Below, piece by piece: positions 12,790-63,980 of a stretch of 64,000 bases of DNA. Each line of letters opens with the position of its first letter. Position 1 is the first letter of the stretch. The notes under the pieces are model-generated. The model made no database searches. It saw only the letters and a list, made by a program, of their open reading frames with translations, and was not told the origin of the DNA. A program made the translations under genes and the position numbers. The stretch is from the NCBI RefSeq assembly GCF_005080685.1, contig NZ_CP039371.1, forward strand, positions 682,001-746,000, given 5' to 3'. Origin of the DNA: Pseudomonas putida. Its GTDB lineage: Bacteria; Pseudomonadota; Gammaproteobacteria; Pseudomonadales; Pseudomonadaceae.

Positions 12790-13728
12790 ATGAACTGCGC
12801 CGAAACCATTGAATCCCGCTTGCCCAAGACGTTGTCCACGACGGCCCGTTTCGCCGTGGTGGCGCCGGCCGGGCCGGCCCGGCTGGACGCGCAGAAGGCC
12901 GTGCAATGGTTCACCGAGCGTGGCTACCGCTGCCAGCTGTACCCGAGCGTCAGCGCCAGCGAAGGTTACCTCGCCGGCAGCGATGCCCAGCGCCTGCAGG
13001 ACCTGCACGATGCCTTCGCCGACCCGTCCATCGATGCCATCCTGTGCATGCGTGGCGGCTACGGCAGCATGCGCCTGCTCGATCGTCTCGACCTCGACCT
13101 GATTCGCCGCCATCCCAAGCCGTTCATCGGCTACAGCGATGTCACCGCGCTGCACAGCGTGTTCAACCAGCATGCCGGGTTGGTGACCTTCCATGGCGCC
13201 ATGCTCAACGCCGACCTGCTGGGGGCCAAGCTGCAGCCGACCGAGTCGTCATTGATTGCGCAGTTGGGCGGGCATGTGCGGCGGGGCGATGCCATCGCCC
13301 ATCCTGCCCAGTTTCCCTTGAGCTGCGTGGTGCCGGGTGTGGCCACGGGGCGCCTGCTTGGCGGCAACCTGTCGATGCTGGGCGCCACGCTGGGGACCCC
13401 CGGCGAGCTGGATTGCGAAGGTGCGATCCTGTTCATCGAGGACGTCAACGAGCCGTTGTACCGGGTCGACCGGTTGCTGACCCAGTTGCGCCTGGCGGGC
13501 AAGCTGGAAGGCCTGAAGGGCGTGCTGGTGGGGGATTTTGCGGGGATCACGGTCGCGGCCATGACGCCGCTGTTGCTGGAGATCTTCGGTCCGTTGGGCG
13601 TGCCGGTGCTGGCGGGGTGGCGCAGTGGGCATTGCGACCCGAATGTGTGCTTGCCGCTGGGGGCTCGGGTGCTGTTGGACAGTGAGCAGCAGCAGGTGGT
13701 GTTGCAGCAGGATCTGTTCGAGGCTTGA
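12790..13728 (+). CDS. LD-carboxypeptidase (S66 family)
   Basis: This 312-residue protein matches muramoyltetrapeptide carboxypeptidase (LdcA), which trims recycled tetrapeptides in the cytoplasm. Landmarks are FAVVAPAGPARLD near the start, the nucleophile region CMRGGYGSMRLLD (serine of GGYGS), and the later EDVNEPLYRVDR with the catalytic glutamate. The ATG at 12790 has GGAG eight bases ahead. It follows the lipA terminator and precedes a REP doublet, so it is probably a single-gene unit. It fits the peptidoglycan theme of this stretch. Confidence 0.92.
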   Translation: MNCAETIESRLPKTLSTTARFAVVAPAGPARLDAQKAVQWFTERGYRCQLYPSVSASEGYLAGSDAQRLQDLHDAFADPSIDAILCMRGGYGSMRLLDRLDLDLIRRHPKPFIGYSDVTALHSVFNQHAGLVTFHGAMLNADLLGAKLQPTESSLIAQLGGHVRRGDAIAHPAQFPLSCVVPGVATGRLLGGNLSMLGATLGTPGELDCEGAILFIEDVNEPLYRVDRLLTQLRLAGKLEGLKGVLVGDFAGITVAAMTPLLLEIFGPLGVPVLAGWRSGHCDPNVCLPLGARVLLDSEQQQVVLQQDLFEA

Positions 13729-38874: not shown

Positions 38875-38962
38875 GTAAATCTCCGGAAAAGGTATTCAGC
38901 AGGGCAAGCGAAGCGCCAGCACCTGAAGCTAAGACCATGATAGGGCAGGCTCGGTTCGCCGT

Positions 38963-38968
38963 TATACT
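38963..38968 (+). promoter_or_regulatory. Chromosomal hrpB -10 box (TATACT)
   Basis: TATACT ends 23 bases before the hrpB ATG. The same hexamer at exactly the same distance lies before the island copy (39590-39595), which suggests that both are the native hrpB promoter. Confidence 0.5.
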
Positions 38969-38991
38969 CGCCGCACTGTTCGAGGACCACC

Positions 38992-39441
38992 ATGATTTCA
39001 TTACCGATCGATGCTGTCTTGCCCGCCCTGCGCCAGGCCCTGGAAAACCGCGACGAAGCCGTGCTCGAAGCGCCGCCCGGCGCCGGCAAGACCACCCGCG
39101 TGCCGCTGGCGCTGCTCGATGCGCCCTGGCTGGCCGGGCAGACCATCCTCATGCTCGAACCGCGCCGGCTCGCTGCCCGTGCGGCCGCCGAGCGGCTGGC
39201 CAGCGAATTGGGCGAGAAGGTCGGCGAGACCGTGGGCTATCGCATTCGCCTGGACAGCAAGGTGGGGCCGAACACCCGCATCGAAGTGGTCACCGAGGGC
39301 ATCCTCACCCGCCGCCTGCAGGCCGACCCGGCGCTCGAAGGTGTGGGGCTGCTGATTTTCGACGAGTTTCACGATTTGCTGATTAGCTCTTTTTCCGCTC
39401 TTGCTTGTCAGGATTTTCAATCAAAGCCCACAAGGCTTTGA
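38992..39441 (+). pseudogene. hrpB: Chromosomal hrpB, truncated by the island
   Basis: This frame encodes the first 127 residues of the ATP-dependent helicase HrpB, including the P-loop [10 protein letters not shown]. It breaks off right in the helicase motif II region (FDEFH). The expected continuation is lost, and 22 unrelated residues follow before a stop, so a complete helicase of over 800 residues cannot be made. The join lies at about 39375. The 3' part of the gene is not in the window and may lie beyond the far end of the island. A full substitute copy starts at 39619. Confidence 0.92.
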
Positions 39442-39471
39442 TGCTCCTGCTCCTGCTCCTGCTCCTGCTCC
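39421..39471. repeat. Hairpin and GCTCCT tandem repeat near the island's left end
   Basis: TCAAAGCC / GGCTTTGA (39421-39428 with 39434-39441) forms a hairpin with a 5-base loop. Directly after it, GCTCCT is repeated four times plus a variant copy (39443-39471). Both lie between the broken and the intact hrpB. Confidence 0.75.
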
Positions 39472-39589
39472 CGCCTCTGCTTTGCCCTCGCTTCTGCTCT
39501 CGTTCTTCCTATCTTTTCATGGTGCGCTTAGGTAGCTCACTGATCCTGACTGGCATCCTCAAGCTCAAATCAACCCTCAACGCTCAGCG

Positions 39590-39595
39590 TATACT
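39590..39595 (+). promoter_or_regulatory. Island hrpB -10 box (TATACT)
   Basis: TATACT ends 23 bases before the ATG at 39619, mirroring the chromosomal copy. No clear -35 hexamer was found. Confidence 0.45.
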
Positions 39596-39618
39596 GCCTC
39601 CCTGATTTGGGAGCCTCG

Positions 39619-42135
39619 ATGATTTCTCTACCTATTGACCTCGTATTGCCAGACCTACGAGAGGCCCTGGCCAACCGCAACGAAGTGATCCTTGAAGCGC
39701 CACCTGGTGCGGGCAAGACCACTCGGGTGCCCCTGGCGCTGCTGAACGAACCTTGGCTTGGTGATCAAAAGATCCTGATGCTCGAACCTCGTCGACTGGC
39801 TGCTCGGGCGGCTGCTGAGCGTTTGGCGAGTGAACTGGGTGAGAAGGTAGGTGAGACTGTCGGCTACCGCATTCGCCTTGAAAGCAAAGTAGGCCCGCGA
39901 ACCCAGATCGAGGTGGTCACCGAAGGTATCTTGGCGCGCCGGCTCCAAGATGATCCTGCGCTGGACGGGGTGGGCGTGGTCATCTTCGACGAGTACCACC
40001 TTAGAAATCTTGACTCTGACCTTGCACTTGCTCTGTGCCTGAGTGCCCGCGATCTGCTGCGTGATGAGCCCCCACTGAAGCTGCTCCTGATGTCCGCAAC
40101 ACTGGAGGGTGCTCGCCTTTCAAAGGTGCTGAATGATGGGCCTGTGGTCACCAGTGAAGGGCGGATGTATCCGGTTTCGACGGTTTGGGGTAGCCCCTAT
40201 CAGCCGGGAGAGCGAATCGATGCGCGAGTCACTGACACCTGCCTGGCCGCCATCAATGAACAGTCGGGAAGCATTCTGGTTTTCCTCCCTGGGCAGGCAG
40301 AGATTCGGCGGGTGGCGGAAGATCTCAAGGAGCAGCTCAACAGCCGTCCAGACGTGATCGTATGCCCGCTGTACGGTGACCTCGATCTGAACGCTCAGCG
40401 TGCCGCGATAGACCCGGCACCCAGGGGCTCCCGGAAGATCGTACTGGCCACGAACATCGCCGAGACCAGCTTGACCATCGAAGGCGTCAGGGTCGTGGTG
40501 GACAGTGGTCTGGAGCGAGTGCCGAAGTTCGATCCTCGCAGTGGCATGACCCGACTCGACACTCAGCGTATCTCGAAGGCCAGTGCTACCCAGCGTGCGG
40601 GGCGGGCAGGGCGCTTGGAGCCAGGTGTCTGCTATCGCCTGTGGTCGGAATCGCAGCACGAGCAAATGGCCGGCTACAGCACCCCAGAGATCCTGCAGGC
40701 GGATCTCGCAGCTCTGGCACTCCAGCTGGCCCGGTGGGGAATGAAGCCAGAAGAGATGACCTGGCTCGACCAACCTCCATCAGCTCCTTTCGGCCAAGCC
40801 AGAGACCTGCTGAAGCGTCTGGGCGCACTCGATGATGCTGGACAGCTCACACCGCACGGTTCGGCGATGAGCGAACTCCCAGCGCATCCACGGATCGCTC
40901 ACATGCTCATCAAAGGCAATGCGATGGGCCTGGATGACCTGGCCTGCAACATTGCGGCTCTGCTGGGTGAGAAGGACATCCTGCGTGGAGCAGGCGCCGA
41001 CCTTCACACCAGGCTGAGTGCCTTGTCAGGTGAGCAACATTCACGTCGTAGTGGCGGCTCCCTTCAGCGGGTGAAGCAGTCGGCTCGGCAGTACCGATCC
41101 CTACTACGGGGGAAGGCCTCCAGCCTTGTCAGCGAGCCCGATCACCCACGGTGGGTAGGGTGCCTCCTGGCGTTTGCCTACCCTGACCGAATCGGCCTGC
41201 AGAGGCGTGCAAGTGCATCCGAATACCGTCTCTCCAACGGTCGTGCTGCGGTGTTCTCAGAGCCCGATGGCCTCACCAAACATGAGTGGCTGGTGGTGGC
41301 CGACCTGGGTAGCCGGCAAGGGCAGCGCGAAGAACGGATCTACCTGGCGAGTGACCTCGATCCGGCTCTGTTCGATGACGAGCTGGCTGACCTTGTGAGG
41401 TCTGTCGATGAGGTCGACTGGGACGAAAGGGAAGGTGTTCTGAAGGCTGAGCGGCAATTGAAGGTTGGGCAGCTGATCTTGTCGACGAAAGCCCTGCCGA
41501 GTCTTGATGAGCAAACCCGTTCGCTGGCCTTGGTCAACCTGGTGAGGCGTAAGGGTATCGAGCTGCTGCCGTGGAACCCCGAGCTACGGCAGTGGCAGGC
41601 GCGGGTCGATCTGCTGCGTCAGCTGGACATCCAGAATGGTCAGGCACAGAGCAAATGGCCTGATCTCAGTGATGCCAATCTGCTCGACACGCTGGAAGAG
41701 TGGCTCACGCCGTACCTGGGCAAAGTCACGAGGCTCAGCCACTTCAGCCAGCTGGATCTGTCGTCGATAGTCAGAAACCTACTACCTTGGCCGCTTCCAC
41801 AAGAGCTGGAAGTCCAGGCACCTCAGGCGATCCAGGTGCCGTCTGGTTCGAACATCCGCATCGACTACTCGCAGCATCCGCCGATCCTCGCAGTGAGGCT
41901 TCAGGAGTTGTTTGGTCTGGCAGAAACCCCTCGCATTGCCCAGGGCAGGCAGCCGCTGATTCTCCATCTACTGTCGCCGGCCCGTAGGCCTGTGCAGGTT
42001 ACCCAGGATCTCGCCAACTTCTGGCGCAGTACCTATGTCGAGGTGAAGAAAGATCTCAAAGGTAGATACCCCAAGCATTATTGGCCTGAAGATCCATTGG
42101 TGGCGGAGGCTACGGCTAGGGATGGTCTGAAGTAG
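39619..42135 (+). CDS. hrpB: ATP-dependent helicase HrpB, island copy
   Basis: An 838-residue DEAH-type helicase. It has [15 protein letters not shown] (motif I), IFDEYHLRN (motif II), LMSATLEGARL (motif III), TNIAETSLTIEGVRVVVD (motif V) and SKASATQRAGRAGRL (motif VI), then the HrpB-type C-terminal regions. Over its first 127 residues it resembles but clearly differs from the broken chromosomal copy, so it is not a recent duplication. The start ATG has GGGAG ahead. The last codons and the TAG stop come from the IS5-family end; without the IS, the frame would end in RAKPRKS after 43314-43335. Function is probably kept, since only the tail differs. Confidence 0.93.
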   Translation: MISLPIDLVLPDLREALANRNEVILEAPPGAGKTTRVPLALLNEPWLGDQKILMLEPRRLAARAAAERLASELGEKVGETVGYRIRLESKVGPRTQIEVVTEGILARRLQDDPALDGVGVVIFDEYHLRNLDSDLALALCLSARDLLRDEPPLKLLLMSATLEGARLSKVLNDGPVVTSEGRMYPVSTVWGSPYQPGERIDARVTDTCLAAINEQSGSILVFLPGQAEIRRVAEDLKEQLNSRPDVIVCPLYGDLDLNAQRAAIDPAPRGSRKIVLATNIAETSLTIEGVRVVVDSGLERVPKFDPRSGMTRLDTQRISKASATQRAGRAGRLEPGVCYRLWSESQHEQMAGYSTPEILQADLAALALQLARWGMKPEEMTWLDQPPSAPFGQARDLLKRLGALDDAGQLTPHGSAMSELPAHPRIAHMLIKGNAMGLDDLACNIAALLGEKDILRGAGADLHTRLSALSGEQHSRRSGGSLQRVKQSARQYRSLLRGKASSLVSEPDHPRWVGCLLAFAYPDRIGLQRRASASEYRLSNGRAAVFSEPDGLTKHEWLVVADLGSRQGQREERIYLASDLDPALFDDELADLVRSVDEVDWDEREGVLKAERQLKVGQLILSTKALPSLDEQTRSLALVNLVRRKGIELLPWNPELRQWQARVDLLRQLDIQNGQAQSKWPDLSDANLLDTLEEWLTPYLGKVTRLSHFSQLDLSSIVRNLLPWPLPQELEVQAPQAIQVPSGSNIRIDYSQHPPILAVRLQELFGLAETPRIAQGRQPLILHLLSPARRPVQVTQDLANFWRSTYVEVKKDLKGRYPKHYWPEDPLVAEATARDGLK

Positions 42136-43309
42136 CCATGTGCTTCTGGCCGGCTTCGACCATCGCTGATTTTGAAAGTGGCGAGTCGACCCAAAACGCT
42201 CAGATCACTGACTCATTCCTGTCTTTTTAGCCGCAGCGAGCACCTCGCGGCGGCTATTCCCCACATTACAGGCGCACCTCTCCTGCATTGCTCAGTAAAT
42301 GTCGACGGGCCATCCACAGATTCGACAGGGCAAACAGCGTCAGCAGCTGTGCCGTGTTCTTGGCCAGGCCACGGAAGCGCGTCTTCACATAACCAAACTG
42401 GCGCTTGATCACCCGGAACGGGTGCTCGACCTTCGCCCTTACCTGCGCTTTGGCTTTTTCGATCTTGCGCTTGGCTTTGTACAGGACGCTGCGCTTGCCC
42501 AGTTTCTGGTAGGTGCTACGCCGGGCGGCAATTTGCCAGATGACCTGACGACCTTCATGCTCGGGGCGTTTCTCCACTCCGGTATAACCGGCATCGGCAC
42601 AGACCACGTTTTCGTCGCCGTGCAGCAGCTTATCGACCTGCGTGACATCGGCCACATTGGCCGCCGTGCCCACCACACTATGCACCAGGCCCGACTCGTC
42701 ATCCACACCGATATGGGCCTTCATGCCGAAGTACCATTGATTGCCTTTCTTGGCCTGGTGCATTTCCGGGTCGCGCTTGCCGTCCTGGTTCTTGGTCGAA
42801 CTCGGCGCATGAATCAGCGTGGCATCGACGATGGTGCCCTGGCGCAGCGACAGGCCGCGATCTCCCAGGTAGCCATTGATCACGCCCAAAATCCCTGCCG
42901 CCAGCTCGTGCTTTTCCAGCAGGCGACGGAAGTTGAGGATGGTGGTTTCGTCGGGAATGCGCTCCAGGCTCAGCCCAGCAAACTGGCGCAGAATGGTCGT
43001 TTCGTAGAGCGCTTCCTCCATTGCCGGATCGCTGTAGCCGAACCAGTTCTGCATCAGATGTATGCGCAGCATCGCCATAAACGGATAGGCCGGACGACCG
43101 CCTTCACCCTTCGGGTAGTGCGGCTCGATCAGGGTAATCAAACCCTTCCACGGCACCACCTGATCCATCTCGATAAGGAACAATTCCTTGCGGGTCTGCT
43201 TGCGCTTGCCGGCGTACTCGGCATCGGCGAAGGTCATCTGCTTCATCAGGCGTCTCGGCGGGTGAGATCAGGCATTCTGCCAAATCTGGAAGTCCTCTTC
43301 AGAGTTTCC
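42120..43309 (-). mobile_element. IS5-family insertion sequence, 1190 bp
   Basis: The ends GGATGGTCTGAAG (42120-42132) and, on the other strand, GGAAACTCTGAAG (43297-43309) are imperfect inverted repeats. They are flanked by direct repeats CTAG at 42116-42119 and 43310-43313, as expected for IS5 targets. The length is close to that of IS5 itself. It holds one intact transposase gene and looks complete. Confidence 0.88.
42266..43246 (-). CDS. IS5-family transposase
   Basis: A 326-residue DDE transposase. It begins MKQMTFADAEYAGKRKQTRK, and holds the catalytic regions GTIVDATLIHAPSST (first Asp), VCADAGYTG (second Asp) and the C-terminal KVEHPFRVIKRQFGY (Glu of the YREK-like signature). A DUF772-type N-terminal domain (about 45-120) is present. 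The frame is intact, so the element may still be active. It is read on the minus strand, opposite to hrpB. Confidence 0.94.
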   Translation of the reverse strand: MKQMTFADAEYAGKRKQTRKELFLIEMDQVVPWKGLITLIEPHYPKGEGGRPAYPFMAMLRIHLMQNWFGYSDPAMEEALYETTILRQFAGLSLERIPDETTILNFRRLLEKHELAAGILGVINGYLGDRGLSLRQGTIVDATLIHAPSSTKNQDGKRDPEMHQAKKGNQWYFGMKAHIGVDDESGLVHSVVGTAANVADVTQVDKLLHGDENVVCADAGYTGVEKRPEHEGRQVIWQIAARRSTYQKLGKRSVLYKAKRKIEKAKAQVRAKVEHPFRVIKRQFGYVKTRFRGLAKNTAQLLTLFALSNLWMARRHLLSNAGEVRL

Positions 43310-43470
43310 CTAGAGCCAAGCCGAGGAAGTCCTGAATACAGGGCCTTTCGTAGAAGTTAATGGTTCACTGCTCGCCTTCTGTCGTTACCTCGGTGGCGTA
43401 TGGCCATTAGGCATGGACGCCACCTCTGATTTCACATAGCCTTGAGCGCCAAAAGCCATGGAAGTAGGTG

Positions 43471-45090
43471 ATGGACTCGAGTAATGCGGGCGGCGTAGCA
43501 GCCAAGCTTGGATTCCTCTATCAGGACTGTGCTGCGGCGCTTTTCGTAACTGAGATGCTGCTCAACAAGAAGATCGAGGCTGTCAGGTGCGAGGTTACTG
43601 ATGACATTGATATTCTCTATGGCACGCACACAGAGTTTATCCAGGTTAAAACTTCCGATAAGCCGCGCTGGTCTATCAGTACAGTAACAATCCGTTCTCG
43701 CGGCGCTAACAATAAACTTATTGCTAATAGCTCTATTGTCCACAAGTCCATGCAGTGTGCATCGGCACCCCTTGATCGGTGTAAGTTTAGGATACTGTCT
43801 CCTAGGGATTGCAAAGATCCTTTGGATTTTCTAGAAATTGATAGATCGAAGCGGAGCGGGAAGCCTGGTCGCCAAGATTTGATCGATGGGCTTAATGATA
43901 AGCTTAAAAATTATGTCGCTCCGGCAGGGAACTCGATAACTGACTGGGTTGATGCCTGCTGGTGGCATGTGATACCTAGCTTGAGAGAGATAGAGCTTAC
44001 CGCTCTGGATAACATTAGAAGGGCCGCACAAAGCCTTTACGGCGTGATTCTCAGCGTCGAGTCGGTGGTTGAAAATATATGGGTTAACATTCTTGTCACC
44101 ATGACTAAGAAAAGTGCGTTGGATAGGCGGGTTTATGTAGAGGATGACAAAACTTATCATCGAGATCATTTTCTCGCCTGGTTCAAGGCTGAAGTGTTAT
44201 TTTATGATCGCGGCAATTCTCACGCGAAAGTGTACGTTCATCGGAAATTGCCAAATATCCTGGTTCAACTTCAGGCGCCATTTGTAAGTTCAGTTCCTAG
44301 TAGGAATGGGCTAGCCCTGCATCAGCGCTACCAGATGGGTCAGTATCGCTATGAGCATATTGCTAGCAATATTTGTCACTGGTTTGACGAGCTCTTGCTG
44401 AGGCCAAATGAGATTGCTGACTTCAATAGTTCCAGCGCCACTGAAAAGTACAGGCTACTAAGGTCGCGGCTCGCTGATAATACGAACGATCTAGAGCAAT
44501 TTCTTGGGAATGCATTACTGCATTCGGTAATGCGATTGAGGCATGATAGTCAGCCCATACCCGCTACACTTTATTTGGACTCAAAGGGCGACTTGAAGGT
44601 ATTTGAAAATGTCCATATTGTCCAGCGCTCCAAAGGTGGAGATGAGTTGTGGCTCGGAGTCAGTAAGCTAACTAAAGCAAGAACCGTATCCCAAGTCTTA
44701 ACTGAGCTGAGGGATGCTCTTTACGATGACATAGTCAACGGCCTGGATGGAGTTAGGGAGAAAGTTCTCGATGTGAAAGAGGACTCCTATCTCCTGAGGC
44801 ACGATGTAGATGAGATTCTTGATACGAGCAGCTCGTTTGAGGATCATCTGGATCGCTTTAGATTTGTTATTTTCTTCGGGTATGAGTCCGCGTTGCTAAC
44901 TATTCCTGAGACAAAAGGTCACGAGCCTGATTTGTATCGGGAGGCGTACCAGTTGTTCGTGGATTTTATATCAGATTTAGCAAGTAATCCGGTTTATGCT
45001 CAGTTGAATGTCGAGCTTTATATCTATGCGGCCCCTAGTTTTGACGACTTATGTGGTTTGTTGAAAAAGAAAATGCGAGATGAGCAATGA
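43471..45090 (+). CDS. AbpA-like antiphage protein (nuclease-like N-terminus, HamA/DUF1837-like C-terminus)
   Basis: A 539-residue protein, matching the length of AbpA (YfjL) of the E. coli AbpAB antiphage system. The N-terminus (GFLYQDCAAALFVTE, then D45, D47 and Q58-x-K60 in TEFIQVKTSD) looks like a PD-(D/E)xK nuclease of the DUF4297/Cap4 type. The C-terminus, from about residue 365, resembles the DUF1837 domain shared by AbpA and HamA, with DELWLGVSK at 391-399. The Glu expected in the HamA ExK motif appears as V397. The ATG at 43471 is preferred (GGAAG ahead). It overlaps the helicase gene by 4 bases. Base composition is AT-rich, a sign of transfer. Confidence 0.72.
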   Translation: MDSSNAGGVAAKLGFLYQDCAAALFVTEMLLNKKIEAVRCEVTDDIDILYGTHTEFIQVKTSDKPRWSISTVTIRSRGANNKLIANSSIVHKSMQCASAPLDRCKFRILSPRDCKDPLDFLEIDRSKRSGKPGRQDLIDGLNDKLKNYVAPAGNSITDWVDACWWHVIPSLREIELTALDNIRRAAQSLYGVILSVESVVENIWVNILVTMTKKSALDRRVYVEDDKTYHRDHFLAWFKAEVLFYDRGNSHAKVYVHRKLPNILVQLQAPFVSSVPSRNGLALHQRYQMGQYRYEHIASNICHWFDELLLRPNEIADFNSSSATEKYRLLRSRLADNTNDLEQFLGNALLHSVMRLRHDSQPIPATLYLDSKGDLKVFENVHIVQRSKGGDELWLGVSKLTKARTVSQVLTELRDALYDDIVNGLDGVREKVLDVKEDSYLLRHDVDEILDTSSSFEDHLDRFRFVIFFGYESALLTIPETKGHEPDLYREAYQLFVDFISDLASNPVYAQLNVELYIYAAPSFDDLCGLLKKKMRDEQ

Positions 45091-47279
45091 ACAGTATTTA
45101 CGACAGTGCTAGGTTGCTGCTTGATACCCAAGGTTCTTCAGCATTCACTTATCTGCGAGCTGCTGACAAGCTGTTGTCAAATCCTGTTTCACTGCATATG
45201 GGCAGAGACTTGGTGATCCGTGCCTTAGATGCAAGGCCAAAGTTCTCAAGCTATACGCCGTTACTTCGGAACCTTGTGCGTAAAGCCGGGCTATATCCGT
45301 ACTTGAAGAAGGAGTTTCAAGATGTATCAGTCAGCGAAAGAGCAGCTTTAGGTATTTATCAAACTCCATTCTCAGACGACATCGTCTTCCACTCAATGCA
45401 ATTTCAGGTGTTCGAGCTTCTTAGGTCTGGTCGAAATGTTGTATTGAGCGCTCCTACCAGTATGGGCAAAAGTGCGATTGTAGACTCCATTATTGGTTTG
45501 GGTTTAGTGCGTAGGGCGGTTTTGGTTGTACCTACCATTGCACTTGCCGACGAGACCCGCAGGCGGCTTCAAGATAGATTTGGAGAGACTTATCAGATTA
45601 TTCACCACAGTTCGCAGCAGGCCAGTGGTGACAAGGTAATTTATGTGCTGACCCAAGAGAGGGTCAACGAGCGGCAAGATATCGTAGACATTGATTTTTT
45701 CGTGATTGATGAATTTTATAAGCTTGCATTTCAGCAGCGAGCCAGTGGCAAGATAGATTACGAAAATGAGCGAGTGATTGAGCTTAATATTGCATTGAGC
45801 AAGCTTCTCAAAGCCTCCAAGCAGTTTTATATGACTGGCCCATTTATCAATAGTGTCACAGGCCTGGCTGGCCTCGGTTTTGAGTATACTTTCATATCGT
45901 CTGATTTTAATACGGTGGCTTTAGATGTCGAGTCACTGGATTTGTCCCCTAATGACGAAGCAGGCAAAGAGGAAGCCATTCGTGCTATTGCAGGGAAGTG
46001 CCGTGGGGAGGCCACTATAATCTACTGCAAGTCTTCTGCTATTGCTGGTGGCGTTGCTAGGACTTTAGCTGCCAATGGTTTTGGCTCAAAGTTTAATAGT
46101 CCTCATCTGAACTGGGTGGCAGAAGAATATGATTGGGATTGGGACTATTGCTTAGCGTTGCGCAATGGTATTGGGCTTCATTTTGGCGGATTGCCCCGTG
46201 CGTTGCAGCAATATACTATTGATCTTTTCAATCGAGGTGAGATCAATTATTTGATCTGTACTTCGACGATTATTGAAGGGGTTAACACGATTGCTAAAAA
46301 TGTTGTCATATATGACAATAGGGATGGCAATTTTAGTATCGACAAGTTCACGCATGGTAATATTAAAGGTCGTGCTGGTCGGATGGGGGTTCATTTTGTA
46401 GGTAAGGTATACTGCCTTGAGTCAATACCACAGGACTCGTTCAATCAGGAAGTAGATATCCCCCTGGGTATCCAAGATGCTACGACGCCAATGAACCTCT
46501 TGGTGGGTGTTCAGCCTGAACACCTCAGTGACTATTCTCAGGCTAGGTTTGAACGAGATGAGAATGTTGACGAATTCGGCGTAGATTTGCTCAAGCGACA
46601 TAGCTCCTTCAGCTTAGAAACGTTCAGAGAGATATACTCCTTTGTGGAGATGCTCTCAGAGTCCGACCTGCAGTCCGCAATTTTTCATTGGATGCCTTCT
46701 GCCACGTTTCTGAATGTTTTAGCCGAGGCAGTGACTAGGTTTCAAGCAGGTGCCCTTCGTAGGGTACGTATTCCCACGAAAAACACATCTGTGATCCACG
46801 CAAAGCTTACAAACTATTTGTACACCTCTGAGTACGCCGAATACTTCAAGTCCCAGATTGATCAGTCAAAGGCGCGTTTGGAGAGAGGAGAGGTTGAAGA
46901 CTTATCTATCTGCATCAATGATGACCTAAAGGTGGTAATCAATATTTTCGGACATACCGTTCCCAAGCTTCTAGGTATTCTTGAAGATGTGGTGAAGCTG
47001 TATGCCAAAAGACACAATATCAACTCTAAGATTGACTATTCTAGGTTGCGTGGCATTTTTGAGCATTACCATCTCTCTCCCGGTCTTGCTGGCCTAGAGG
47101 AGATGGGGGTGCCTGTTCAGACTCTCCAGAGGGTCAACGGTGTGATTGAGGTGCCTCAAGATCTCGATGTGGATGAGATGGCTCAGTTCCTAAGAGATCA
47201 TGAGTCTCGCTGGCTCAGTATGGGCACCGTAGATCGTTCTTTTTTGACGAGAACGCTTTATCCGAATTCGAGGAAGTGA
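45087..47279 (+). CDS. AbpB/HamB-like superfamily 2 helicase of an antiphage system
   Basis: A 730-residue helicase, close to the 729 residues of AbpB (YfjK). Motif I is APTSMGKS (122-129), motif II is D208-E-F-Y-K212, motif III MTGP, motif V CTSTIIEGVNTIAKNVVI, and motif VI GRAGRMG (428-434). This pattern resembles the Ski2-like helicases of AbpAB and Hachiman systems. ATGA overlap with the preceding gene implies coupled translation and a shared complex. E. coli AbpAB blocks several phages; the same role is inferred here. HamB would be the alternative, but the 539/730 length pair fits AbpAB better. Confidence 0.75.
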   Translation: MNSIYDSARLLLDTQGSSAFTYLRAADKLLSNPVSLHMGRDLVIRALDARPKFSSYTPLLRNLVRKAGLYPYLKKEFQDVSVSERAALGIYQTPFSDDIVFHSMQFQVFELLRSGRNVVLSAPTSMGKSAIVDSIIGLGLVRRAVLVVPTIALADETRRRLQDRFGETYQIIHHSSQQASGDKVIYVLTQERVNERQDIVDIDFFVIDEFYKLAFQQRASGKIDYENERVIELNIALSKLLKASKQFYMTGPFINSVTGLAGLGFEYTFISSDFNTVALDVESLDLSPNDEAGKEEAIRAIAGKCRGEATIIYCKSSAIAGGVARTLAANGFGSKFNSPHLNWVAEEYDWDWDYCLALRNGIGLHFGGLPRALQQYTIDLFNRGEINYLICTSTIIEGVNTIAKNVVIYDNRDGNFSIDKFTHGNIKGRAGRMGVHFVGKVYCLESIPQDSFNQEVDIPLGIQDATTPMNLLVGVQPEHLSDYSQARFERDENVDEFGVDLLKRHSSFSLETFREIYSFVEMLSESDLQSAIFHWMPSATFLNVLAEAVTRFQAGALRRVRIPTKNTSVIHAKLTNYLYTSEYAEYFKSQIDQSKARLERGEVEDLSICINDDLKVVINIFGHTVPKLLGILEDVVKLYAKRHNINSKIDYSRLRGIFEHYHLSPGLAGLEEMGVPVQTLQRVNGVIEVPQDLDVDEMAQFLRDHESRWLSMGTVDRSFLTRTLYPNSRK

Positions 47280-52369: not shown

Positions 52370-52618
52370 GACCTTTCACCTCATGTGGCACACAGGAAAG
52401 TCTGTCAAACCGGAGGGTTGAAAGCAGGTAGTTCGCTCACTTGAATTTCGCTTTTGCCCGACGGATTGCGCTAAGAAAGCTTATTCACGAACTGTGGCGA
52501 GCTAACTCTCACCATCCCAGTAGAACTGCTCCAGGCCCTGCCCATTCGGCTCTCGCGCTGAACTGAAGCCCTTTTTGCCGCCTCGAATTTGGACACGGTC
52601 TCAGAGGGGGTTCGGGGA

Positions 52619-55402
52619 ATGGACGACACGGCCTTGGCATTCATGATCTTTGCGGCAGATCACCCGGACGCTCTTGCCCAAGTTCAAGTCTTGAGTGAAG
52701 CGGAAGCGCTGGAAGCCGGAGAGCCGCTGTCGGCGCTGCGTGACACCATGATAGTCCAGGCCCTCACGGCGGAAGCCAACAAGCGAGGCGTTTCCCTCGA
52801 TGGGCTGATTCAAGCGCTTATCGGGAGAGGCGACGTTCAAAAGGAAGGCCCGAGCGTCCCTGGCCTGGAAAAGTACAACCGGATGCGTGATTTCAACGCC
52901 TCACCTGAACCATCGGGTGCGGAGAAATCCGCAAAGCGTTCGGAGCGTTCATCCGCTCGCGCCTTGCAGTTTTGTGTGCAAAAACACGACGCCACCAGAC
53001 TCCACTACGATTTCCGGCTTGAGCTAAACGGCACGCTCAAGAGCTGGGCCATACCGAAAGGCCCATGCTTCGATCCAAAGGTGAAGCGGCTGTCGGTGCA
53101 TGTCGAAGACCATCCGCTCGACTACGCCACCTTTGAAGGAACGATTCCCAAAGGGCACTACGGTGCCGGCGAGGTGATCGTCTGGGATCGCGGTATCTGG
53201 ATCCCTCAAGGTGATCCGGACGAGGCCTACCGCAAAGGCCGACTCAAGTTCGAACTGCAGGGTGAGAAGCTGTCAGGCCTGTGGAATCTGGTTCGAACCA
53301 ATATCGAAGGCAAGCAGGAGCAGTGGTTTCTCATCAAACATCAGGACGAGTCGGCCAGACCGCTCGCCGATTACGATGTCGTGTCGGAGCAGCCGAACAG
53401 CGTGCTCAGCGACCGAACCGTCATTCCCAAGAAACGAGGCAAGCCTAAATCCTCCTCTCCGAGTGAGTCACCAGATAAAGCCGAGCCGCTCCGAACGGCT
53501 CATGCAGTACCGGCAGACCTCCCAGAGAAGCTAGCACCGCAGTTGGCCACGCTCGTCGAGTCGAGTCCGCAGGGCAGTGAGTGGCGCTTCGAAATCAAGT
53601 TCGATGGCTATCGCATGCTCTGCCGAGTCGAGGGTGACGAAGTGCGCCTGTTCACACGAAATGGACATGACTGGACTGACAAGCTACCGAAGCAGGCCGC
53701 AGCCATCAAGCAGCTCGGTTTGGAAAGCGCCTGGCTCGATGGTGAGATTGTCGTCCCGAACGCTGATGGCGTACCCGATTTCCAGCTGCTGCAGAACGCG
53801 TTCGACGCGGGCAAGAGCCAGGGCATCATCTACTACCTGTTCGACCTTCCGTACCTCAACGGCGCCGACCTGCGCCTGGTGCCTGTGGAGCAGCGGCGAG
53901 CCGCGCTCAAACAGGTGATGGAAAGCAATGAGCATCCCTTGCTTCGATTCTCGGACGACTTTACCGAGGACGTCGATGCGCTCATGAACAGCGCCTGCCA
54001 GATGAGGATGGAGGGGCTGATTGGGAAGCGCTCGGGTAGCCCCTACGTATCGAGGCGCAGCGACTCTTGGATCAAGCTCAAGTGCAAGCATCGCCAGGAG
54101 TTCGTGATTGTTGGCTTTACCGATCCCAAAGGTGCGCGCAGTGGCTTTGGAGCACTGGTGCTGGCCCTGACTGATAAGGACAGCGGAGAGCTTCGGTACG
54201 CCGGCAAGGTTGGTACTGGGTTCACCGAATCGACCCTCGCCACCATCTTGCAGACGCTGCAACCCCTGGAGCAGAAAAAGGTGCCGGTGGCGAATCCGCC
54301 AAAGGGGGTGGACGCCAAGGGCATCCATTGGTTGAAGCCTGAGCTCCTGGCTGAGGTCATGTTCGCTGAGATCACCTCGGATGGTGTGGTGCGACATGCC
54401 GTCTTCCATGGCATCCGCACTGACAAGCCCGCTAAGGACATCACGGAAGAGAAGCCGGCGCCCGCGCCGAAAAAAGCGACATCCGCCAAAGCGGAGGCGA
54501 CCAAACCAACAAGCAGTAAGGTTAGGATCACGCACCCCGAGCGCGTCATCGATCCCAGCAGCGGCCTCACAAAGCGTGATCTGGCCGAATACTATGCCCA
54601 GGTCTCACCTTGGCTCTTGCCGCACCTGAAAGACCGTCCCATTGCGCTCGTGCGAGCGCCTGAAGGCATCACAGGTGATCTGTTCTTTCAGAAGAATGCT
54701 GATCGCCTAGCGATACCCAACATCACGACCGTGCCGAAGGCTGAGGCAGGCAAAGCCGGCATGGTGATCAACAGCGTCGAAGCTCTGGTCGGGGCGGTGC
54801 AGATGAGCACCATTGAGCTGCACTCCTGGAACGGCACAACCGCTCGCATTGATCAGCCTGATCGCTTCGTCCTCGATCTCGACCCAGATCCTGCTTTGCC
54901 TTGGAAGGCGATGGTCGAGGCCACACAACTCACCCTGGTGGTGCTGGATGAACTAGGCCTGCAGTCCTTCCTGAAGACCAGCGGAGGGAAGGGTATCCAC
55001 ATCATGGTGCCGCTTACTCCGAAGGCTTCATGGGAAGAGGTGAAGTCCTTCAGCCAGGCGGTGGTGAAATACATCGCCAAGCTCATTCCAGATCGATTTT
55101 CGGCTGTGCTCGGCCCGAAAAATCGCATCGGCAAAATCTTCATCGACTATTTGCGAAACGCTAAAGGCGCTACGACGGTCAATGTCTATGCGGCCAGGGC
55201 TCGTGAAGGACTACCTGTATCTGTCCCGATTTACCGAGAGGAGGTCGCCGAGCTCAAGTCCGCAGCGAGGTGGAACATCACCAACCTCCAGGAGCGTCTG
55301 GATGAGCTCGGCGGTGATGATCCTTGGGCGGAACTGGCCAGTACGAAGCAGCTCATCACGTCAGAGATGAGACAGCGGATCGGCATGAAACAGAAGGAGT
55401 AG
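52619..55402 (+). CDS. ligD: DNA ligase D (phosphoesterase-ligase-polymerase)
   Basis: A 927-residue multi-domain enzyme of bacterial end-joining. It has a family-specific N-terminal region (about 1-100), a 3'-phosphoesterase domain (HDATRLHYDFRLEL, 123-136), an ATP-dependent ligase domain with K327 in EIKFDGYR, and a polymerase/primase domain (about 640-920) with D753 and D755 in DLDPDP. The order PE-ligase-polymerase is typical of Pseudomonas LigD. The start ATG at 52619 is supported by the same MDDT start in the broken copy at 63498. Ku, its usual partner, is not seen in the window. It is followed 4 bases later by the DUF2188 gene. Confidence 0.96.
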   Translation: MDDTALAFMIFAADHPDALAQVQVLSEAEALEAGEPLSALRDTMIVQALTAEANKRGVSLDGLIQALIGRGDVQKEGPSVPGLEKYNRMRDFNASPEPSGAEKSAKRSERSSARALQFCVQKHDATRLHYDFRLELNGTLKSWAIPKGPCFDPKVKRLSVHVEDHPLDYATFEGTIPKGHYGAGEVIVWDRGIWIPQGDPDEAYRKGRLKFELQGEKLSGLWNLVRTNIEGKQEQWFLIKHQDESARPLADYDVVSEQPNSVLSDRTVIPKKRGKPKSSSPSESPDKAEPLRTAHAVPADLPEKLAPQLATLVESSPQGSEWRFEIKFDGYRMLCRVEGDEVRLFTRNGHDWTDKLPKQAAAIKQLGLESAWLDGEIVVPNADGVPDFQLLQNAFDAGKSQGIIYYLFDLPYLNGADLRLVPVEQRRAALKQVMESNEHPLLRFSDDFTEDVDALMNSACQMRMEGLIGKRSGSPYVSRRSDSWIKLKCKHRQEFVIVGFTDPKGARSGFGALVLALTDKDSGELRYAGKVGTGFTESTLATILQTLQPLEQKKVPVANPPKGVDAKGIHWLKPELLAEVMFAEITSDGVVRHAVFHGIRTDKPAKDITEEKPAPAPKKATSAKAEATKPTSSKVRITHPERVIDPSSGLTKRDLAEYYAQVSPWLLPHLKDRPIALVRAPEGITGDLFFQKNADRLAIPNITTVPKAEAGKAGMVINSVEALVGAVQMSTIELHSWNGTTARIDQPDRFVLDLDPDPALPWKAMVEATQLTLVVLDELGLQSFLKTSGGKGIHIMVPLTPKASWEEVKSFSQAVVKYIAKLIPDRFSAVLGPKNRIGKIFIDYLRNAKGATTVNVYAARAREGLPVSVPIYREEVAELKSAARWNITNLQERLDELGGDDPWAELASTKQLITSEMRQRIGMKQKE

Positions 55403-56966: not shown

Positions 56967-57149
56967 GCGTCGTTAGCTCGCCTCTGGTATGCGTTAGGGC
57001 GTCTCGGCCATACGACGTTGCTCCGAAGCGATGAGTGGTGGGCCAAGCGTCGCATGGCATTAGCGGCTATCGTAGGAGGGCGTCAAGCGAACCGCCTTCA
57101 CGCTCTGCCCGGTTTTCGGGGCGTATACCGTCAATCTGAAGGGAAGACT

Positions 57150-58697
57150 ATGCAGCAGCTGCCAGCTGACGAAACCATACGAGCGGCCTTGAAGAAGACC
57201 CACATTCGCCTGCACCGCCAACATGAACTGGTGGTGGAGTTCGGCGTGATGTCCTTGAAAGTGACTGACCTGGATGTGTTGTTGACCCATGCCTGTGAAG
57301 TCGTCGCTGAAGGGATGAGCACTCGCTTCGCCAAGGTGCTGCAGCCGGCTGAGGAGGGGGAAGGCTTCATCTTGTCACACGGTGTGGGCTGGGACGCTTC
57401 TGACATCGGTCAGGCTACCGTGGGTGCCGATGAAGCAAGCCCGGCAGGCTATGCATTGGCAACCTACAGGCCAGTGCTGTCGAACCATCTGGGCATGGAG
57501 CACCGGTTCCGAACACCGGAGCTGCTGAAGAAATACGGAATCGAAAGGGCTATCAACGTCCCGATCCGGGGCGTACTTAGCCCCTTTGGCGTTCTCGAAG
57601 CCGATAGCAGTGACGGGGACGATTTTGTAGAGAGCGATCTCGTATTTTTGGAGGGTATCTCGAACGTCATTTCCATGGCCCTTGAGCGAATATCTGCGGG
57701 AGCAGATATCCCTCTTCCCGATCCGTATTCGGAAACACTTCTGAACGCTAGTCCCGACTGGGTCGAGATCCTGACTTCAAGTGGCGAGATCGAGTTCATG
57801 AACGAAACCGGGCTACTCTTCCTGGCTACCCAGCTGGCGGATGTAAAAGGCCAGAGGTGGCAAGACTTGTGGCCCGAGGAGTCTCGCTCACTTGTTTGCG
57901 AGGCTATGGGAAAGGTCAGCAGCGGGGAAACCGCTCGATTCGAGGCCTATCACCCCATCTCTGCAGATGATCCAAAATGGTGGGACGTGACGGTGGCGCC
58001 GATCCTCGGAGTGGACGGCAAGGTCGAGCGAATGATTGCCGTATCGCGAGATATCACCGAGCGTCATCAATATGAAGCTCAATTGCTGTCGCTCATCGAG
58101 GCCCAGAATAGCAAGCAAAACCGAAGCGACCTCTATCTCGAAGAGATCCACCATCGCGTCAAGAACAGCCTTCACCTGGTAAACACACTACTCTTGCTGC
58201 AGGCCAATCTCACGCCTGATGCAGCGGTCAAATTGCAACTTGAAACCGCCGCAGGCCGAGTGGTGACCATTGCCACGGTTCACGAGCGGCTGTACCAAGC
58301 TGCCGAAGAACAAGAACTTCGTGCTCGTGACTACCTCACTGCTCTGCTGGGGGATCTGGGCAGGGCTTTGGCTGACCGGAAAATTGCGCTGGAGGCTGAC
58401 GACTTCGTATTGCCTCCAGAAAGAATGGCGCCCTTGGGACTGGTGATTTCTGAACTGATCACGAATGCCCTCAAGTATGGCAAGGGCGACATTGAGGTGG
58501 CCGTCAAGCATGCCGGCGACCATGCGCTACTCACCGTCAGGGATGAGGGCGACGGCTTCCCTGATAATTATCCTAAGCCGACAGGTACAGGGCTTGGCAT
58601 GCGATTGGTCAAAAGCTATTCCGGTTACGGTAGCGCGGCAGTGGAGGTTGATCGGCAGGATAGTAAAAGTTGTATCCATGTACGCTTCAAACTCTAG
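57150..58697 (+). CDS. GAF-PAS sensor histidine kinase of the HisKA_2 type
   Basis: A 515-residue soluble kinase. It has a GAF domain (about 28-180), a PAS domain (about 190-310, with WPEESRSLVCEAM), then a HisKA_2 dimerisation region with EEIHHRVKNSLHLVNTLLLL (the phosphoacceptor is probably H335) and an ATPase domain (ISELITNALKYGKGDI, then TGTGLGMRLV). No membrane segment is seen, so it senses a cytoplasmic signal. The start ATG at 57150 has AAGGGA ahead. Three KPW receivers lie around it. Confidence 0.9.
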   Translation: MQQLPADETIRAALKKTHIRLHRQHELVVEFGVMSLKVTDLDVLLTHACEVVAEGMSTRFAKVLQPAEEGEGFILSHGVGWDASDIGQATVGADEASPAGYALATYRPVLSNHLGMEHRFRTPELLKKYGIERAINVPIRGVLSPFGVLEADSSDGDDFVESDLVFLEGISNVISMALERISAGADIPLPDPYSETLLNASPDWVEILTSSGEIEFMNETGLLFLATQLADVKGQRWQDLWPEESRSLVCEAMGKVSSGETARFEAYHPISADDPKWWDVTVAPILGVDGKVERMIAVSRDITERHQYEAQLLSLIEAQNSKQNRSDLYLEEIHHRVKNSLHLVNTLLLLQANLTPDAAVKLQLETAAGRVVTIATVHERLYQAAEEQELRARDYLTALLGDLGRALADRKIALEADDFVLPPERMAPLGLVISELITNALKYGKGDIEVAVKHAGDHALLTVRDEGDGFPDNYPKPTGTGLGMRLVKSYSGYGSAAVEVDRQDSKSCIHVRFKL

Positions 58698-63292: not shown

Positions 63293-63497
63293 AAGGTCAG
63301 CTCCTGCAGGCGTTTTCCGTGATAGGTATGCAGGGGAAGCCATGACAGATGGCAAAGTTCAGCCGAACAAGTCCGGTGGTACTTAAAACTCATTCGCGAC
63401 GCCCACATTTCAAGCTGAACATTCCTGACCACACCGGTATCAGAACGATCTGAGCCCGTGCCACAAGAGCCAGGCCGATTAAACGAGGGGCGTGGCG

Positions 63498-63980
63498 ATG
63501 GACGACACGATGTTGGCATACATGGTGTTCGCTGCCTCACATCCTGAGGCGCTTTCGCAGGTACAAGTGCTTACAGAAGCGGAGGCATTGGAGGCTGGCG
63601 AAGCACTCCCAGATCTGCGTGAAACCATGGCCGTACAGATCCTCAGTGCTGAAGCCAAGGCTCAGCGTAAAACCCTGGCCACGCTCGTTGAGGTGATTTT
63701 GGGCAAGGCCGTCATCGAGCCCGATGCGCCATCCACTAACCATGTCTCCAGCCTTGAGAAATACAACCGGATGCGAGATTTCGACGCGTCACCAGAGCCG
63801 TCTGGAAATCGTAAGCAGTCGAGCAGGAAGATTCAGGCCTTACAATTCTGCGTCCAGAAGCATGACGCCACACGGCTGCATTACGACTTCCGCTCGGAGC
63901 TCGATGGCACGTTGAAGAGTTGGGCGACCGTTACCGGCTGTCCGAAAAGCGTCGTTGTCGGAAATTGGCGCTCGCGTTGA
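63498..63980 (+). pseudogene. Truncated second ligD (N-terminal part only)
   Basis: A 160-residue frame that matches LigD from residue 1 (MDDTMLAYMVFAASHPEALS) to about residue 143 (SWA), covering the N-terminal region and the start of the phosphoesterase domain. It then changes abruptly to 17 unrelated residues and stops. Most of the protein (ligase and polymerase) is missing. Nucleotide divergence from the complete ligD at 52619 is clear, so it is an old paralog or comes from another island rather than a fresh duplication. Confidence 0.85.

Follow-up and report, generated by a model that had tools for sequence, protein, structure and literature searches.

Why should a bacterial chromosome hold an hrpB gene that stops making sense in its motif II codons and, soon afterwards, a second hrpB that is complete? 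This question is raised by the 64-kb window analysed here, positions 682001-746000 of a 6.5 Mb contig (C1) of Pseudomonas putida; coordinates without a prefix are those of the window. A preliminary description, made from the sequence alone, had proposed that an insertion broke hrpB and brought its own replacement. Our answer is that an island lies within the gene, and we consider it likely that this island is a natural 'home-and-rescue' element that carries a recoded, self-protecting copy of hrpB.

The insertion in the chromosomal hrpB

The chromosomal hrpB starts at 38992 on the plus strand, and its match to hrpB holds through codon 127 (CAC, 39370-39372), just where the preliminary description had placed the break. 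The 5' part (38992-39373) comprises codons 1-127 and the first base of codon 128. It ends in TTTCACG (39367-39373, plus strand), the host target bases retained at the left junction, where the last host base is either G39373 or A39374. Soon after the break, as had been described, a complete open reading frame for HrpB follows on the same strand (39619-42135, 838 amino acids, aa). It passes the NCBIfam HrpB equivalog model TIGR01970 (1191.5 bits, cut-off 546.15) and misses the stricter model NF008662 (925.1 versus 1053). A promoter-like TATACT, read from the sequence, ends 23 bases before each ATG on the plus strand (38963-38968 and 39590-39595), and this earlier observation also stands. Identity between the element-borne and the native gene is 80% in residues 1-138 and 69% in the native 3' part. 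Judged by this divergence, the two copies are not a recent tandem duplication; the preliminary description had reached the same view.

Extending the sequence to the right, as had been suggested, recovered the missing 3' part of the native gene. It lies 52 kb away at C1:773433-775562 on the same strand and covers residues 127-834; host DNA restarts at about C1:773437, and the native 3' part runs from about position 13437 of the fetched locus L006 (plus strand). When the left and right flanks were fused in a script, they gave a single open hrpB frame of 842 codons that reads through DEFHERSLDADL. Both halves of the native gene therefore flank one island, and the insert is a precise insertion of about 52 kb in hrpB. 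Spanning C1:721374 to about 773436, the element is some 52.06 kb long. The window contains no more than the left 24.6 kb of it (39374-64000), and this part has a lower G+C content than the DNA on its left.

The left end of the element (39374-39391, plus strand) reads TTTGCTGATT and is an imperfect inverted match to the right end, AATCGGCAAA. A direct repeat of the target (39361-39374) at the right end, which the preliminary description had thought worth looking for, was not clear: the left junction has TTTCACG and the right one CTTTCAG. At the element junctions, 6-7 bases vary on the recombinase side, and the opposite side keeps bases of the host. The recombinase end is the right end of the island, where a four-gene operon of the tyrosine-recombinase type lies on the minus strand (L006:6993-13346; 475, 203, 698 and 757 aa). 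It encodes three recombinase-like proteins (757, 698 and 475 aa) and a 203-aa protein. The order from the element end, 757-698-203-475, is identical at loci L067, L068, L069, L071, L085 and L186, and the integrase that Pfam recognises is the operon member farthest from the element end.

Recurrence of the island and recoding of the carried copy

Of 398 genomes of the genus, 42, the window genome among them, contain a relative of the 757-aa recombinase, and 30 loci were fetched. The start of the 757-aa-type gene adjoins hrpB residues from about 129 on in 19 of the 30 fetched loci, and genome G358 (locus L082) makes the twentieth case. All 20 genomes have the 5' piece of hrpB (7 and 13 in two rounds) and all 20 have a second hrpB, the frame of which is open in 19; the copy in G358 is frame-shifted near residue 390. 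Genome G198 has both hrpB pieces and a carried copy, and retains the 757-aa gene only as a remnant. Public species genomes were scanned as well and yielded 30 loci; at 23 of these hrpB is interrupted at the same position, and several of the genomes had already been counted. Eighteen public genomes were probed genome-wide for hrpB, and the 10 that belong to Pseudomonas or Stutzerimonas (P. fragi, P. bubulae, P. helleri, P. sivasensis, P. japonica, P. cichorii, P. ceruminis, S. stutzeri 28a22, Pseudomonas sp. C2B4 and a metagenome-assembled genome) all have the 3' piece, the 5' piece and a complete copy. Some carried copies are nearly identical (P. fragi and G255, P. sivasensis and G165, S. stutzeri and G063), and therefore the 10 public genomes are not all independent. 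Altogether, an hrpB copy is present in 30/30 of the hrpB-inserted elements counted in Pseudomonas and Stutzerimonas, one of them frame-shifted.

These results bear on two further claims of the preliminary description. Elements that sit in hrpB do recur, but they do not always start with hrpB, as had been expected: in several the carried gene is internal or lies nearer the recombinase end. The idea of a self-complementing insertion is borne out by the native halves that flank one island and by its recurrence in many Pseudomonas species; that the insertion comes without cost to the host is unproven. Selection on the native pieces left by the insertions shows no sign of relaxation (ratio of non-synonymous to synonymous substitution rates, dN/dS, 0.019-0.051 in seven pairs), so the insertions look young from their sequences. 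We had also considered a decay of the interrupted native hrpB and rejected it on these values.

The carried copies differ from their targets at the exact insertion site. In the window element the stretch 39988-40014 (plus strand) encodes DEYHLRNLD and the native gene has DEFHERSLD. More generally, ERS is replaced by L/S/I-R-N/T/S. Measured against DE(F/Y)HERSLD, a change just after the insertion-site H was found in 22/22 copies of a first set and in 32/32 copies of an enlarged set, which includes G217_E and G254b_E of a second recombinase family described below and G063_E, the location of which in hrpB was not shown; G408, G358 and a plasmid copy are outside this set. The glutamate at residue 128 is absent in 31/31 carried copies of hrpB-inserted elements (29 of the enlarged set plus G358 and G408). 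In the hit genes, codon 128 begins with G in 20/20 (CAYG, at the position of the CACG that ends the left junction here), and Arg-Ser follows in 20/20, which places a serine at residue 130.

We asked how unusual this change is over residues 129-590. In 28 hit 3' pieces, 263 columns reach a conservation of 95% or more, and a single one of them is abandoned by the 32 carried copies: Ser130, which is present in 28/28 hit pieces and in 1/32 carried copies. When the odd piece of G404 is left out, three of 276 columns are abandoned (130, 307 and 513). The genes in this test were chosen only for being hit and not for residue 128. The hit 3' pieces were cut by a pattern that contains Ser130; every piece tried matched it, and the omitted piece of G254, the frame of which is broken, also has serine. 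An earlier column count (8/603 abandoned, two at the site) was circular, as its native set had been picked for glutamate at 128, and is not evidence; its unparsed rows were 4/32 carried copies (three DEFHSRN copies among them), 1/14 single resistant-type genes, that is, genes with the changed site, and 2/37 native loci. Elsewhere the unchanged form is kept: the solved HrpB structure 6eud, which we take to be the E. coli protein, reads DEFHERSL at the target, and ERSL is also found in an hrpB of P. aeruginosa. The carried genes are under purifying selection, with dN/dS of 0.053-0.085 in the five computable of six pairs; native pairs gave 0.013-0.059 (four pairs).

Based on these results, we propose the following model. 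The tyrosine-recombinase-type operon would move the island site-specifically, and the island enters hrpB at a single position within its motif II codons. The complete hrpB that it carries would be expressed, restoring the helicase and with it the fitness of the host. As the target has been lost at the same point in the carried copy, this copy would be spared by the resident element and by newcomers. It may be selection for this block to integration that drove the change. Finally, recombination could hand the resistant segment to the host locus.

Mosaic genes, a second recombinase family and competing explanations

The last step of the model concerns genes of resistant type that stand alone. 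In six genomes (G091, G142, G356, G037, G310 and G339) a resistant-type hrpB lies beside native upstream neighbours with no separate 3' piece; the downstream neighbour is unrecognised at all six loci. The hrpB genes of G310 and G339 lean slightly towards native genes over residues 1-124 (88-96% versus 82-93%) and, from residue 124 on, mostly resemble carried copies more. G314 has a largely native-like hrpB, the sole clearly element-like window of which, 124-190, lies around the site. The element copy of G243 is native-like (98-100%) beyond residue 330 and keeps the changed site; once this copy was seen to be a mosaic, it was dropped as an independent recoding. On sequence grounds, these mosaics fit an exchange by homologous recombination of the carried copy with the host hrpB in which the recoded segment was retained. 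Relatives that have only the second-type hrpB seem to represent a further stage of this process. Changed-site genes that lack a separate 3' piece and have a wholly or partly native-like 5' part, with an element-like segment around the target, were seen in G310, G339, G314, G356 and G026 (loci L228, L229, L230, L220 and L222).

The hrpB gene is also entered at its 3' end. Directly after GRYPK lies another operon (506, 629, 682 and 142 aa, a GInt-like order) in G217, G254, G045, G053, G056 and others (L076:5551-11430; L069:14066-19901; L274-L276; L278-L283). Relatives of its 682-aa protein occur in 51/398 genomes, and in 8 of 30 fetched loci of these relatives hrpB begins just after the 142-aa gene. 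Only the 506-aa protein matches Phage_integrase in Pfam. The target arginine codon in GRYPK is CGN in 12/12 hit native genes and AGR in 8/8 carried copies, which is suggestive rather than proven as a recoding of the second family's own target. The two families share one hrpB in G217, G254 and G143. We tried to establish their kinship, and the link was weak (E 0.006; E 0.0034, probability 9.6). It is tempting to go further and to suppose that two remotely alike recombinase families each evolved home-and-rescue on hrpB, each breaking the gene at a different point and each recoding its copy at its own target (by non-synonymous changes in motif II and by synonymous ones in the GRYPK codons), while resistant segments leak out as mosaic alleles. 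Such an arms race is a tentative idea, and we give it slightly less than an even chance.

Several results weigh against the model and its extension. The changed site also occurs in 17/52 complete hrpB genes outside the 757-aa family assignment, a sample that is biased to element-like genes; three of the 17 (G045, G053 and G056) are the carried copies of second-family elements. The element-free complete genes that were sampled comprised 14 from genomes with a recombinase relative (12/14 have glutamate), 19 from the top of one list of hrpB genes, among them G198, which was afterwards placed with the carried copies, and 20 chosen by hand to span the entries shown in that list (16/20 have glutamate). 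The carried copies partly share ancestry, so their counts are not independent events. Support is weak in a tree of residues 1-123, and the tree does not fix how many recodings were independent. As for the second family, AGR makes up 17% of arginine codons in its first five carried copies (16-17% in carried copies) versus 1.8% in 35 native genes, and AGR is found at the target codon in 5/35 native genes as well. Three of its more distant members with the same cut (G031, G332 and G004) showed no second hrpB within the fetched stretch, the rest of these genomes not having been fully searched.

Further difficulties come from relatives with another target or another outcome. On the P. aeruginosa plasmid pPA1609-475 (NZ_CP090650.1; L186, 142000-191500) a related element lies in a tellurite-resistance gene and carries an hrpB, the site of which is unchanged, DEYHERSLDADL. 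Its 757-aa homologue is only 28% identical, and the element may have another target; even so, this copy, with the native target DEYHERSL, demonstrates that recoding is not obligatory in a carried hrpB, and we rejected recoding as a universal rule of carried hrpB genes. Its right junction, TCCACG, is that of many native hrpB sites, as if the element had formerly been in hrpB. Another candidate for a plasmid hrpB copy, CP109682.1, was set aside, the gene sitting there among genes taken for ordinary chromosomal ones. In G404 (P. ceruminis, L232-L234) a relative lies inside a resistant-type hrpB that has CACC for CACG, with CGCAGC kept to the right. Any immunity is thus not absolute: loss of the single G may be insufficient, or the specificity of this element may have shifted, possibly as a counter-adaptation. 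In 3/3 Marinobacter genomes (L162-L164) hrpB is in two pieces, and in two of these genomes the 3' piece lies directly against the recombinase gene; no complete copy was found genome-wide in these draft assemblies. Finally, 757-aa relatives also sit at the LFLDEL codons of comM, at L033 (G285), where a comM piece abuts the recombinase gene, and, by DNA, at L034 (G101). G378 is a weaker case, in which comM is cut to about the same length and the recombinase gene is 24 kb away. No second full comM was found in G285 or G378. Together with Marinobacter, the comM cases led us to reject rescue as a rule of the whole 757-aa family; it is a trait of the Pseudomonas-group elements.

How do other explanations fare against these data? 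Simple gene replacement, or an assembly error that duplicated or mis-joined hrpB, has practically no chance, and for this genome it is refuted. Relatives with only a second-type hrpB, which the preliminary description had taken as the sign of replacement, do exist in other species but do not apply to this genome, where the native 3' part lies 52 kb away on the same 6.5 Mb contig and the empty frame is open; the same junction recurs across many assemblies. We also find it very unlikely that HrpB is a routine passenger, such as a helicase for defence or stress, of elements that happen to target hrpB. The element hrpB does sit beside Hachiman genes, and the pPA1609-475 element, outside hrpB, carries hrpB with an unchanged site. 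However, cargo of that kind would hardly be present in 30/30 hrpB-inserted elements, one copy being frame-shifted, and be changed exactly at the target.

Two explanations deserve more attention. The carried gene may rescue the host without selected immunity, the E-to-L and S-to-N changes having been inherited from a donor lineage that differed there by chance. This is unlikely, although it would be in keeping with carried copies that fall in few clades with a shared history and with the changed site in 17/52 complete genes outside the family (the three second-family-carried ones among them). It is difficult to reconcile with the fact that Ser130, at the insertion point, is the only abandoned column of 263, or with a segment that persists where the remainder of the gene has been exchanged (G243) and appears as a small element-like tract at the site in the largely native-like G314. 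The second family, moreover, is changed at its own, different site. Alternatively, the carried hrpB may mainly deny the site to rivals by way of a resistant host allele, a kind of site vaccination, and not restore the helicase. The single resistant-type genes beside native upstream neighbours in several genomes, some of them mosaic, would be expected in that case, as would two families that compete for hrpB and can share it (G217, G254 and G143); yet purifying selection on the carried gene suggests that the function of the protein matters, and we regard this explanation too as improbable. The home-and-rescue model remains the one that we favour.

Cargo and comparison with known systems

Beyond hrpB, the part of the island inside the window carries a variety of other genes. 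An insertion-sequence-like stretch (42223-43360) has an 81% DNA match to 'mobile element protein' features of phage records over 42223-43312. As the window from 38900 to 44000 matched phage records only at this stretch, a phage was rejected as the carrier. Near the element hrpB lies an adjacent, complete pair of Hachiman defence genes (43468-47279, plus strand), encoding HamA with a Cap4-type nuclease domain (43468-45090) and the HamB helicase (45087-47279). Farther on, also on the plus strand, are genes for an ATP-dependent DNA ligase, LigD (52589-55402), and a GAF/PAS sensor histidine kinase (57018-58697). A short open reading frame (63492-63980) matches only the start of LigD_N and is probably a broken duplicate of the full LigD.

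Mobile elements usually limit the harm they cause by settling in gene ends or in tRNA genes. This island interrupts a conserved gene in its middle, and the damage is seemingly repaid by a full copy altered at the point of the strike. The hrpB gene is non-essential in E. coli; the islands suggest that in Pseudomonas this helicase of unclear role matters enough to merit restoring. If our model is true, it offers a well-defined and testable example of a site-specific recombination system that is self-immune because its target has been recoded, and a route by which a foreign version could replace a core gene. In a literature search we found no account of a replacement hrpB borne by an element. Two papers touch on the gene: hrpB is named once as an island site in P. 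aeruginosa (PMC8373256), where two of the four papers cited for it make no mention of hrpB, and HrpB is among the genes of predicted islands in P. savastanoi (PMC8815115).

The closest known kinds of element are GInts and SEs. GInts, as far as described in the part of PMC5385486 that was read, have three recombinase-type genes and a small one at one end, insert site-specifically and carry variable cargo. The window element likewise has three recombinase-type genes and one small protein. It differs in order (757-698-203-475 from the end versus ginA-ginB-ginC-ginD, with the small gene last). GInts are flanked by imperfect direct repeats of 10-17 nt; in a comparison by eye, the junctions TTTCACG and CTTTCAG showed no 10-nt repeat. 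The second family (506-629-682-142 aa) has the GInt layout, a likeness of gene order in which only the 506-aa protein hits Phage_integrase. In that part of the paper, hrpB is not among the GInt targets and a recoded full copy of a target is not described. SEs, according to a portion of PMC10214605, also have several tyrosine-recombinase-like genes and a small factor, with short inverted end motifs and spacer footprints of about 6 bp. Compared by gene order, with no named SE sequence, the window element does not have their arrangement intA-tfp-intB plus srap. SEs leave 6-bp footprints and no empty donor site after recombination; the 6-7 variable bases next to the recombinase operon of the elements studied here may or may not be a counterpart of these footprints. 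Gene rescue is not described in that portion, and hrpB goes without mention in the main text.

Partial restoration of an entered gene has a precedent. Integrative and conjugative elements of the SXT type in prfC supply sequence that restores the gene they enter. These elements restore the gene end only, whereas the hrpB islands bring a full gene with an altered target. In engineered Cleave-and-Rescue drives, a target gene is disrupted and a recoded copy is supplied. Such drives, together with home-and-rescue gene drives (PMC7951863, PMC7968924), are the nearest functional likeness to the islands in hrpB. They are nuclease-based and act in animals, whereas the element in the window is a natural bacterial element of the recombinase type. 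If our model is true, the hrpB islands would be a natural model of recoded-rescue drives.

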